From Panorpa germanica (taxonomy: Eukaryota; Arthropoda; Insecta; Mecoptera; Panorpidae): a stretch of 64,000 nt of DNA. The position numbers and the translations under genes were made by a program. A model generated the notes under the pieces. It worked only from the letters and a program-made list of their open reading frames with translations. It made no database searches and was not told the DNA's origin. The stretch spans positions 9,507,001 through 9,571,000 of the forward strand of contig OY783220.1 of NCBI GenBank assembly GCA_963678705.1, read 5' to 3'. Below are positions 4,461-48,939 of this stretch, piece after piece (the first letter of the stretch is position 1; each line of letters starts with the position of its first letter).

Positions 4461-4650
4461 TGTAGTCCAAATTACTTATACTTAAAATACGTTATAACAG
4501 CGGTATAAATATATAATACGATAATGAATTTCATCTTATTCGTTTCAATATAAATTATAGAAAAATTAGTGATTCAGTGGTTTTTAATTATATCGGCAGT
4601 TTATACCCCAGAACTTGTTTTAAGTATGATTCGCACTGAACTCTAATAAT
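4461..4650. mobile_element. Family E MITE, degenerate copy
   Basis: Collinear with the complete E element at 47573-47790: TGTAGTCCAAAT at the left, GCGGTATAAATATATAATACG in the middle, and TTTTAAGTATGATTCGC at the right. The GC-richer part of the left inverted repeat is deleted. Confidence 0.65.
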
Positions 4651-4727
4651 TAAAAACTTTATTTAAAATTATTATACTTTAATGAGATTACATATTTAAT
4701 ATATCTAACTTAATTATATTATTTCAG

Positions 4728-18042: not shown

Positions 18043-18999
18043 AGACTGATAGCCAGTATGATGTCGTATGGAGCAGAGGTTTGGGGGTGGAAGGAACAAG
18101 AAAAGTTGGAAAGAATACAGGTGAGATACATGAAATGGGTACTAGGGCTGGACAGGTGCACGCCAGGATACATGGTGATGGAGGAGCTAAAGAGGAATAA
18201 CGAATTAAAACAGGGGAAAGAGCGGTAAAATACGAGGAGAAATTGAACAGAGCGGAAAGCAAAATCTTAAAGAAAATAAGAGAGGATTATATAAAGAATG
18301 GGGGGGGAGGAGGTCCAAAAAAGAGAAAAGAATACTTTGAAAGGAATGGAATGGCGATCGAGGAGGCAGAGAGGAGAAGAGAAGGTGGCGCAAGTGTGGC
18401 AGAGGAGCTAAGGAGAAGGGATAAGGAGACACAACAGCAGGAGAGAATGGGAAAAATAGAAAAAAGTAACTACAATAAAAGATATAAGAGGTTATGGGAA
18501 AATAATGTGCCTCAGTACCTTATAGAAAAAGACATAAAACACATAAGAAGAACAGCAAGGTTTAGATTGGGAAATGAGGAAAAAGGAAACAGATACTGGG
18601 AAAAGAGTGAGGAAAGAAAGTGTAGAATGTGTGGAGCGGAGGACGAAACACTGGAGCACATTAAGTTTGAGTGTAAGGAAAAAGTAGCAAGCGAAAGGAA
18701 TATTGGCCAGCTATTAAAGGGAGGCAGTGAAGGAAAGAGGTGGATGGCGGAAATAGTAAGAAGGAAAGGAAAAACAGGAGAATAAACTGGTGGTAATAAG
18801 CTGGTGGAGAATAATAGAGAGGGCCAAAAGAAGAAGAAGCAGAAAGCACTTTTGGAAGTAGTAAAAGTCGAGAAGATTTTAAGTTTAGTTTAAGTTTAGT
18901 TTTAAGTTTGGAATGTATATAGGAATGAAATGTATTAGAAATATAATACTGTAGATTGTAAAGCCGAAAGGCATACACAATTAATATATAAATAAAAAA
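18043..18999 (+). mobile_element. LINE alpha, 5'-truncated insertion
   Basis: A 957-bp non-LTR retrotransposon 3' end flanked by the exact 14-bp duplication TAATTAAAGACATT. It holds the C-terminal part of the reverse-transcriptase polyprotein (18055-18785), then a 3' UTR with GTAGATTGTAAAGCCGAAAG and an A/T-rich tail. Truncation plus a duplication of this length is the usual product of target-primed reverse transcription. Confidence 0.9.
18055..18785 (+). pseudogene. LINE alpha polyprotein C-terminus, frameshifted
   Basis: The first part (from about 18055 to a stop at 18226-18228) reads SYGAEVWGWKEQEKLERIQ and then a YMKWVLGLDR stretch followed by TPGYMV, a region that follows the reverse-transcriptase core in many arthropod LINEs. 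A one-base shift near 18211 (in CAGGGG) moves the frame to the second part, 18243-18785. That part is highly charged and ends in a zinc-knuckle-like motif, CRMCGAEDETLEHIKFEC. Expected full-length polyproteins exceed 1000 residues, so only the last quarter or less is present. The second frame is otherwise open to a stop at 18783-18785, which points to a fairly young insertion. A related antisense copy is at 39123-39395. Clade not assigned. Confidence 0.85.
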
Positions 19000-19013: not shown

Positions 19014-19338
19014 GTTTTATGATAGGGCTGGCTTATGAATATTTAAAGATAATGCTTGTGTCTTGCTTAAAATAAATCTTGGAATTCGTTTGTAGCAAGC
19101 TAACAAGCTTGTAACTACTCTGCAAGATAATTTTATACCTTATTTGTGGTGATATTTTTATTATAATCTAAACTACAAACTCTGAGGTTAGTAATTAAAC
19201 ACAGTAAAGTCTAAATCACAATAGTTCGTCGGCGAATTATACTTAAAAGAGGTTATAAGAGACCTTTTAAATCTATAATACGATAATGAATTTTATCTTA
19301 TTCGTTTCTATATATATTATAGAAAAATAAGTTAGTCA

Positions 19339-19347
19339 GTGCTTTTT
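19339..19347. repeat. 9-bp target duplication, left
   Basis: GTGCTTTTT, repeated at 20089-20097. Confidence 0.85.
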
Positions 19348-20088
19348 ACGTCGCTGAAGTTAGCGAAAACTTACAGCGAAAAGTTCGAAAATGAGCAGTA
19401 CTAGTGGTGTCCAACTGACATTCGTGCAAAAGACTATACACTTGTTGGATTTAATATTTGCAAGTGTATTATGTCTTCTATTTAAATAAATACTTTACAA
19501 TGTGTACGAAAAAAATTAAAAAAACATAAATAATAATAATATGGTAAAAATACCATATATTTGAATCGGTCAAAAAGTGTTTATAACACACATGGCAAAT
19601 GTCAATTTTCTCCAAAACAAGGAAAAATAAACGGTTTAAATTTTGCAGGCAGCTTATTAACATTACAACTAATTAAATAAATACAATTTTATTGACGCTT
19701 CTTCATTAATTCAAAAACTACAGACATCAGAATTCCTCCAACTCAAATTCATTCCTTGCATATAAACAGTGTTTGTTGTAATGTAATGTTGTATGTTGTA
19801 ATGTTGTATTTTTCCTTGTTTTGGAGAAAATTGACATTTGCCATGTGTGTTATAAACACTTTTTGACCGATTCAAATATATGGTATTTTTACCATATTAT
19901 TATTATTTATGTTTTTTTAATTTTTTTCGTACACATTGTAAAGTATTTATTTAAATAGAAGACATAATACACTTGCAAATATTAAATCCAACAAGTGTAT
20001 AGTCTTTTGCACGAATGTCAGTTGGACACCACTAGTACTGCTCATTTTCGAACTTTTCGCTGTAAGTTTTCGCTAACTTCAGCGACGT
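19348..20088. mobile_element. Foldback transposon with 282-bp arms, Mutator-like
   Basis: The element is 741 bp: left arm 19348-19629, loop 19630-19806, right arm 19807-20088. The arms are both 282 bp and I saw no mismatch when comparing one with the reverse complement of the other. Both ends start ACGTCGCTGAAGTTAGCG. The exact 9-bp duplication GTGCTTTTT flanks it. Long TIRs with a 9-bp duplication fit the Mutator (MULE) superfamily. No transposase is present; the minus-strand frame at 19478-19663 lies within the left arm and loop and is not credited as a gene. Arm identity suggests recent insertion or homogenisation. A transcript through it would form a very long hairpin. Confidence 0.85.
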
Positions 20089-20097
20089 GTGCTTTTT
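20089..20097. repeat. 9-bp target duplication, right
   Basis: GTGCTTTTT, exact copy of 19339-19347. Confidence 0.85.
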
Positions 20098-20172
20098 AGT
20101 TATATCGACAGTTTATACCCCACAACTTGTTTTAAGTATGAGTTGCCGCCGAACTCTCGTAATTTGAACTAT

Positions 20173-21539
20173 ATCTGCCAAATCTTGATGAAATATCCAT
20201 AAAATGACCTCTCTTGATGAAGGACCGTATATATTAAAAAGAATCAATTTACTTTTAGCCTACATAAATTATTTCACATCTGAAAGGCAACTATTTAACG
20301 ATACCGACTACATTGTGGGTCCTTTTAAAAATATTACCATATAAAAGCAATATATTTTCTATCCGAAAATATGAACAACTCCTTTCTATGATAAAAAAGA
20401 CGACAAGTTCATAAATATCCTTAAAATATCATCATACACATATATCTTAACTAGGTTACAGGATAAAGTTGAATGTTCAGACAGTTTACCATTTTATGCA
20501 AGTTCACATGCTCGACCAGCAGTTTGGTTTTATCACTAATGAATTATTTATTTCCTTTTGCGATTCGTCATTCGGTATTCTGAACTACGCCACGTGGGCA
20601 ATGCGACGTTTGCCAATTGACCTTTTTGGCACGAATTTTTCATCAGTGTACATTTTGTGGTGACCCGTGTCATTTTATTATCTGAGGATTGATTGTAAGA
20701 AATAACTTCTGAGAAGAAAATTTTAAGCACAGACGTTCAGTTAGCTGTAGAAGTGGGAGGGGGGAGGTGACACGAAGGAGATTTAAAAATAAATAGCATT
20801 TCTTGAATTTGATAATAAATGACAATAATAAAGAAAAGTATAAAAGAAAATAATAATGTTCTCATGCGTTGAACAAATTTAAATATTGTTTAACCAGTCG
20901 AAATATACCTGTTATATAAATGTTACGTGAATTTTATGTTCTCTTTAGGTACTCATTTACTTATCATACACTATGAGTGCTCCTATTATTTTAACCGAGA
21001 GAAGGAAGTTTCACTTCTAGAGCGCACAAAATGGTCCATAGTATATTACAATATTATATTACGTATTGTATATAATAAATATAGCTTATGCACCACGTAG
21101 GTAAATAGCTGTATCTATAAAATAAACAATTATAGTAGACTCTCTTTAATCCAGCACATTAGCGATTGTATTACACTTATAATCTTCGAAATAAAATTTA
21201 AAAACTCTGATTAAACTCTTATTTTTAAGATGGCGGCTAAATGGGAATGCCTTTACCCTGAAAATTTAAATTCAAGATTAACCTTTTACTTTTTTAATGA
21301 TAGAACCAATAAATTGTTACTTTCCAAAAATGCAAGGTTGATTTCGTTCTAAAGACGAATTTTAATAACTATATCATATCTTTGACATTAGTCGAATATT
21401 CTATAACACTACAAAACTGTTTTTGAATAAATATATAACTTAAAAGGTAGAGAATTGTCTTGCAGTGCATTTTTCACACTTACTAGCTGTCTACAAACTA
21501 ATTAGTGTTACGTATTAGGCCTTGCTATGCTAGGAAGGA
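20173..21539. other. AT-rich spacer
   Basis: No gene recognised. An isolated AAGATGGCGGC (21227-21237) resembles a YY1/Pho-type site but has no promoter context. Confidence 0.45.
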
Positions 21540-39122: not shown

Positions 39123-39395
39123 TTAAATAGCTTCAGCCTTCCTTCTTCTAGTTATTTCTGCCATTTATCTGTTCCCTTCCTTGTCCTCCTTTAAGAGCTG
39201 CCCAATATTCATCTCACTCCCTACTTTTTCCTTACAATCAAACTTAATGTGCTCCAGTGTTTCGTCCTCCGTTCCGCACACTCTACACATTCTTTCCTCT
39301 CCACTTTCCCAGTACCTGTTTCCTTTTTTTTCATTTCCCAATCTAAACCTTGCTGTCCTTATGTTTTTTATGTCTTTTTCAATTAAGTACTGAGG
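39123..39395 (-). pseudogene. LINE alpha polyprotein C-terminus, antisense copy
   Basis: Minus-strand reading gives PQYLIEKDIKNIR, TARFRLGNEKKGNRYW and the zinc-knuckle-like CRVCGTEDETLEHIKFDC, closely matching the protein at 18243-18785. One in-frame TAA replaces the Trp of the RWMAEI motif and the frame ends at 39123-39125. The plus-strand frame 39181-39393 is its shadow. Confidence 0.8.
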
Positions 39396-47572: not shown

Positions 47573-47790
47573 TATAGTCCAAATCACGATAGTTCGGCGG
47601 CGACTTATACTTAAAAGAGGTTATAAGAGCGGTATAAATCTATGATACGATAATGAATTTTGTCTTACTCGTTTTTATATACATTATAGGAAAATATGTG
47701 AGTCAGTGTTTTTTAGTTATATCGACAGTTTATACCCCACAACGTATTTTAAGTATGAGTCGCCGCCGAACTCTCGTAATTTGAACTATA
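47573..47790. mobile_element. Family E MITE, complete
   Basis: 218 bp. Left end TATAGTCCAAATCACGATAG, right end (reverse complement) TATAGTTCAAATTACGAGAG, both continuing into TTCGGCGGCGACT; TIRs about 44 bp. The interior includes ATACGATAATGAATTTTGTC. Reference copy for the element split by the foldback transposon at 19348-20088. Confidence 0.8.
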
Positions 47791-48939
47791 TGTCCCACAT
47801 TTTCAATTAAATTCCTTAAACATATATTCCTGAACACTTTCTCATTCATTTCTCATGTAAACTCATATAAAAAATCTAAATGATTTATACCACGTTATTA
47901 TGTGCATTCAAAATGTCGTTTGTTGCCAATTTAGCGCCACCCTTTCTTACTATCACAGAAGGAAAACCACATCAAGTAAAAAATATAGCTTGTAAAATGT
48001 ACGAAGTATTTTCACCCCTAACAATTCAACCACAAGGCAAAGCAACCCTCAGAATATATAGTACAGAAGTACGAAGCATATTTCAAAATGTGGTAAACTG
48101 ACTCGTCTCTGGTATACATGGTTTCTGGTATTGGTTACTCCATTTTATTCTGAACTTGTCTCTGCAAATATGACTACTACAAGTCTACTTCTACGAGTAC
48201 ATGCGTAGCAGATTTACAAATAAATTTGCATATTTTTTAGAAGGGATATCACGTTCAGTGAAATGTAATATCTGGTCACAATATACACTGTATAGAAACA
48301 GGAAGTTAGAAAAGGAGGGTGAGGAAAGGAACGCGAGGGGGGTAAATTTATACAAGTATATATTTTTTAATGGAAAATTTAATATATTTTTAAATTTAAT
48401 AAGAAATTGACATTTTTGACGGGTTTCTTTATCATATGTAAATAAACACGACATATCACACTATCTTATACATCCCTAATTCTATTTTCTAAGCCCCCCC
48501 CTTCCCTTTCCAACCCCTAACACAATTTGAAAGATATACTTTTTCTTATTATTTTTATTTAACGTCAGCTTATTTGCGCGTATATTCATTGCGATCAAAC
48601 ATGGTAAAATGTACTACTGGTTTGGGGATCGAACCTTAAAGGACGGTAGTTTTGTGTTAATACCGTGACGTAATAAGTAAATCAGTATGTTATTAGGTGA
48701 TTACTTAATTAGAGATTTTTATAGCCACTTTGAAAATAACACAGTGGTTACGAAAAATGATTTCCGAAACTATTGTTTTTAATATGTAAGCTTTGCAAGT
48801 TAGAGCCGATATCGCTATTTAAACTGTTTTGCTCTTTCATTTAAATCAGCTTATTTGCATCTATAGCATATTTTTGACAGATTGTCTGACATGGCCCTTT
48901 TTCGCCCTTCTTGATTCATTTTATTAACATTTTACATGT
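47791..48939. other. AT-rich spacer
   Basis: Several short frames (60-90 codons) overlap on both strands; none has a recognisable feature. Confidence 0.4.

Follow-up and report, generated by a model that had tools for sequence, protein, structure and literature searches.

The 741-bp element found in the window (the whole 64-kb stretch of Panorpa germanica DNA analysed here) is best explained as a non-autonomous, cut-and-paste foldback DNA transposon, and we hold this reading with good confidence, together with the inferred supply in trans of an enzyme of the MULE type. The element has no gene of its own, and the same genome contains larger relatives with a transposase-like gene to which it can now be tied. 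Such a link is reported as missing for Tetris (PMC4079207), and FB4 is described as being moved by an unknown transposase (PMC8277862). With this set of copies, it also becomes possible to measure how arms are homogenised and how a satellite grows within a transposon.

Repeat detection placed the two arms, each of 282 nt, at 19348..19629 on the plus strand and 19807..20088 on the minus strand, the right arm being the exact reverse complement of the left one. Between them lies a loop of 177 nt (19630..19806), within which the window's list of open reading frames contains no frame of 120 aa or more. The 9-bp target site duplication GTGCTTTTT was read directly on both sides of the element, at 19339..19347 and 20089..20097. 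Equal arms identical in reverse complement, the loop and the flanking duplication had all been claimed in the original prediction, and our repeat detection agrees with its lengths exactly. The outer 224 nt of the left arm (19348-19571) are the terminal stretch of a dispersed family and the inner 58 nt are part of the family's 193-bp tandem unit, this limit being set from matches to the unit. The match to the unit runs from 19572 to 19784 on the plus strand, mostly at 93% to the array units listed, and comprises one 193-bp period plus 20 bp, so that the window copy holds approximately one unit. Folding of the element stretch as RNA gave -489 kcal/mol against a mean of -135 kcal/mol for 20 shuffles, and the mirror symmetry is therefore far beyond chance. 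The double-stranded RNA and the small RNAs suggested in the original prediction are, beyond this computed fold, hypothetical. No match to Rfam at gathering scores was obtained within the 64-kb window. Elsewhere in the window, a 180-aa frame at 18243-18785 contains the stretch CRMCGAEDETLEHI and recurs in part at 39139-39395 (85%); the frame looks like a LINE end.

The element splits a host repeat, aligned at 19205..20203 (19205-19347 plus 20098-20203), which we took as the family E of the original prediction. The empty site was reconstructed by taking out the element and one 9-mer, joining the flanks and aligning the product. The joined flanks aligned with no break at the junction to three unoccupied paralogues, two of them within the window, and each of these contains the 9-mer once: as GTGTTTTTT at 47573..47820 (plus strand, 88% over 250 columns), as GTGGTTTTT at 4476..4651 (plus strand, 86%), and as GTGCTTTTT in the first 110 bases of locus L013 (92%), one base being changed in two of the three. 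Because the other two window copies of the host repeat are only 86-88% alike to it, they are paralogues and not alleles. The unbroken flanks and the single 9-mer show that the element has inserted into one copy of a different dispersed repeat, which bears out the earlier proposal that it is nested in another MITE.

The 464-Mb genome (249 contigs) was then searched with a 33-base terminal pattern, allowing up to two mismatches. This gave 160 matches, 80 forward and 80 reverse, and no match with the reversed control; the other counts given below are lower bounds. Both ends were read for 23 elements, and 18 of these have a direct target duplication. Its length is 9 bp in 17 cases and 10 bp in one, and its sequence varies among the 18 elements. 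Some of these duplications, the C21 row included, were judged by eye, and locus L028, of which a single end was read, was excluded from the count. The original prediction had proposed a search with the terminal bases and had named an absence of other copies with 9-bp duplications as a result that would speak against it; the search recovered 160 ends, and 17 of the 23 elements carry duplications of this length. A hairpin read could yield perfect arms, which would make the element a foldback artefact of assembly or library. This is hardly credible, since the mirror symmetry goes no further than the family ends, a direct 9-bp repeat lies outside them, and the same ends occur 160 times in the genome.

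The five elements without a direct duplication are at C6:23765485, C239, C221, C2:10235611 (in a TA run) and C21:23284699, and those on C239 and C221 seem to be one locus in opposite orientation. The 7.9-kb copy at C21:23284699-23292579 has outer flanks that are mutually inverted, and this suggests recombination or inversion. Chimeric copies with non-matching flanks have been described for Galileo (PMC3573991).

At least 34 elements could be paired by hand among the terminal-pattern matches listed, from 729 to 24095 bp with a median of 4.7 kb. Six of these 34 are shorter than 1.3 kb, and the window copy is the second shortest, again among the matches listed. The family spans 0.7 to 24 kb, with satellite arrays; complete MULEs in an arthropod survey are given as 1.4 to 10.0 kb (PMC13359780). 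At 15 of the 18 loci examined, arrays of the 190-193-bp unit come after the terminal stretch, in one or both orientations, and such arrays were not seen at the remaining loci, L009, L023 and L028. The terminus and the 193-bp unit have only ACGTCG in common by eye, which is too short to count.

Among the large copies, one of 23.8 kb at C4:25229377 is known from its ends, and the 24.1-kb copy at C7:16547543-16571637 (L026, L029 and L027) owes 13.6 kb to a nested insertion. This insertion is a 13.56-kb palindrome (99.6%) within the left 193-bp array, and each of its halves contains a 153-bp tandem array and an open frame of 1280 or 1284 codons. The frames have C2H2 fingers, an endonuclease VII match below the cut-off and motifs reminiscent of DNA polymerase B; a Pfam scan of the frames gave no polymerase match. 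At its junctions the palindrome shows what reads as a duplication of 6 bp (CATATA), and it has the ends AGT...ACT, a trait of Polintons.

The 741-bp form might also be immobile, a remnant of a larger resident copy after interior loss or recombination. The arms do seem homogenised, five of the 23 elements read show no direct duplication, the state expected after recombination, and one of these five, the 991-bp copy on C6, is the closest relative found by arm sequence and has a different interior. However, a 9-bp duplication of its own flanks each of the short copies (729, 845, 862 and 1537 bp), which proves insertion at each locus and not entry as a short form, and we regard the remnant explanation as unlikely. 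Three of these short copies, all but the 1537-bp one, align over their full length to their own reverse complement (93-96%), so short foldback forms may have arisen more than once.

We also compared the arms within and between copies over the outer 224 bp. Eleven of the 18 copies have no difference between their own two arms and seven have one to three, and the copies differ from one another by up to 19 positions. An identical left arm is common to eleven copies; the window copy, not among them, is five of 224 positions off this large group and two off the left arm of C6:23765485. Differences from the majority occurred on both arms of a copy in 48 cases and on one arm in 18, counts that include gap columns and come from related copies that are not independent. 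From these sequences, the arms within a copy seem to change together. Part of the mirrored differences is descent from an already symmetric ancestor, and for the rest arm-onto-arm copying would be the simpler explanation. In Galileo, the arms of a single copy are described as 98-100% alike, and one arm as being repaired from another (PMC3573991). Most differences are common to both arms of a copy; arm identity is therefore a poor clock, and the recent age that had been read from it is not safe.

Some of the larger copies contain a transposase-like gene, whole or in part. A transposase-like frame of 173 aa lies between family ends in L022 (C1:5435042-5438141), and it gave longer homologues. The closest six are 96-100% identical, and four of them lie between paired family ends, among the ends listed; the homologue at C1:7404004 has one family end listed, and the sixth, on contig C147, was left out. 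The copy at C8:3729214-3752109 (22,896 bp), with the perfect 9-bp duplication CAAATCGAC on both sides, holds one uninterrupted frame of 1170 codons, stop to stop, followed by a 172-bp array. This copy was read except for C8:3746074-3751899, and the 193-bp array is still running where the reading ends. The intact frame belongs to a subfamily with a left arm 89.5% like that of the window element, and no intact gene was found in copies with window-like arms. A further left end lies 11.6 kb away at C8:3717582-3717752; its 30-bp flank is identical to that of the 22.9-kb element, whose left border may have been duplicated locally.

MULE transposases have a DDE triad with a C/DxxH motif before the E. 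We propose D487, D561 and E796 as the catalytic triad of the candidate, counting residues from the VLSYI start of the frame. In the middle part of the protein, DATGS is invariant in seven of seven aligned proteins, and TDFSFALM, CCNH and ALVES in all five that extend that far. The proposed DDE/CxxH residues are present and conserved in the candidate, and partly matched in a second, distant family. Pfam placed a C48/Ulp1 domain on the candidate (E 6e-6, above the curated cut-off), a family profile of the candidate matched SENP1 (E 9e-6), and NCBIfam gave one weak Ulp1-type match far under its cut-off. The motifs HWTLL and LDS, with NNCGVHLC farther along the same frame, look like the triad of an Ulp1-type protease. 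The Pfam MULE model PF10551 gave no match on the candidate; it matches once in the genome, on another protein, and the comparison of that protein with the candidate by hhalign was not significant (probability 0.2). A scan of viral contigs, a set from which records close to the window's genome may be missing, produced 284 matches to the pattern, none of them confirmed as related to the transposase.

The second family, transposase-like and without a Pfam name, was read at L060 (C2:6399700-6403500). It comprises 12 rows with 23% identity to the candidate and open frames of 481 to 1239 aa. L060 was aligned to the candidate by hhalign with a probability of 97.5 over 523 columns, one sequence against a shallow profile, bringing two D and the E into register, and by BLASTP with an E value of 1e-13 in a single comparison.

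Because PF10551 misses the candidate, the assignment to the MULE superfamily rests on the proposed DDE/CxxH pattern, the 9-bp duplications and the architecture. Long, near-identical inverted arms (identical in the window copy, at most three differences over the 224 bp in any of 18 copies) and tandem repeats in the arms (15 of 18 loci, about one unit in the window copy) are foldback features, and duplications of about 9 bp in 18 of the 23 elements read agree with the 9-11 bp given for MULEs (PMC6446971). The window element is probably of the MULE type, and membership of the whole family in this superfamily is likely. In the description of a recent, non-autonomous MULE foldback that we set out from, "non-autonomous" and "foldback" stand, as does the 9-bp duplication, and a MULE-like candidate transposase has been located in larger relatives; the MULE part is qualified, as the MULE profile does not recognise this candidate.

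An element of this anatomy might instead be moved by a P-superfamily foldback like Galileo, or by another DDE superfamily with long inverted repeats. Galileo arms are described as long, internally repetitive and 98-100% alike within a copy, much like the arms found here, and the candidate does escape the MULE profile. Nevertheless, Galileo copies are flanked by 7-bp sequences (PMC3573991), whereas 17 of our 18 duplications are of 9 bp and one is of 10 bp, and Pfam scans of the candidate revealed no THAP or P-type domain. We consider this alternative quite improbable and retain the MULE-type reading.

Under the MULE-type reading, the protein of the larger copies, putatively a MULE-type DDE enzyme with an Ulp1-like protease attached, would bind the outer arm and mobilise short copies in trans by a cut staggered by 9 bp. 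Short copies would arise by interior loss in longer ones, and arms would be kept alike by copying one from the other during repair. Perhaps the family is even an undescribed MULE-related lineage with an Ulp1-joined transposase missed by common profiles, in which arm-onto-arm copying keeps the arms alike and breeds the 193-bp satellite, so that a single family would range from palindromes of 0.7 kb up to satellite islands exceeding 20 kb, but this broader proposal is tentative. Among the literature titles and abstract openings consulted, none names this family, which is not thereby claimed to be undescribed.

By comparison with the published descriptions, the element would function in the manner of Tetris, FB4, Rehavkus and other foldback MULEs. 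Mutator and Ginger1 transposons are reported to encode Ulp1, the Mutator cases being from hydra, lancelet and plants (PMC2836005), and the present family resembles them by description in encoding an Ulp1 domain with its transposase. Drosophila FB4 (PMC8277862) and nematode Tm1 (PMC3169594), both assigned to Mutator/MULE, have long or composite inverted ends with duplications mostly of 9-10 bp and 8-10 bp respectively, and are by description alike in these two features, although the arm repeats of Tm1 are of 13-15 bp against 193 bp here. Rehavkus, described with a 9-bp duplication, inverted ends of 26-400 bp, one frame and a minisatellite before the 3' end (PMC6446971), has been reclassified into MuDR (PMC4455052), also its placement in Repbase, and Rehavkus-1_TC of Tribolium is given as 9.5 kb long, its inverted termini containing short tandem arrays of a 164-bp unit (PMC10218199). 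Set beside these descriptions, our family has the 9-bp duplication, the inverted ends, the single frame and a minisatellite near the ends, and the window element is perhaps Rehavkus-like; however, the PHD finger reported for Rehavkus (PMC6446971) was not found by Pfam in 1039 residues of the candidate plus the last 131, and an Ulp1-like domain is present instead. Tetris / DAIBAM of Drosophila virilis is described as a foldback with tandem repeats of about 220 bp inside its arms, duplications of 8-10 bp and a short sister element (PMC4079207). Our family is like it in its foldback form, its tandem repeats in the arms and its similar duplication length, but whereas an autonomous copy of Tetris is reported not to have been found (PMC4079207), here a transposase-like gene lies between the family ends.
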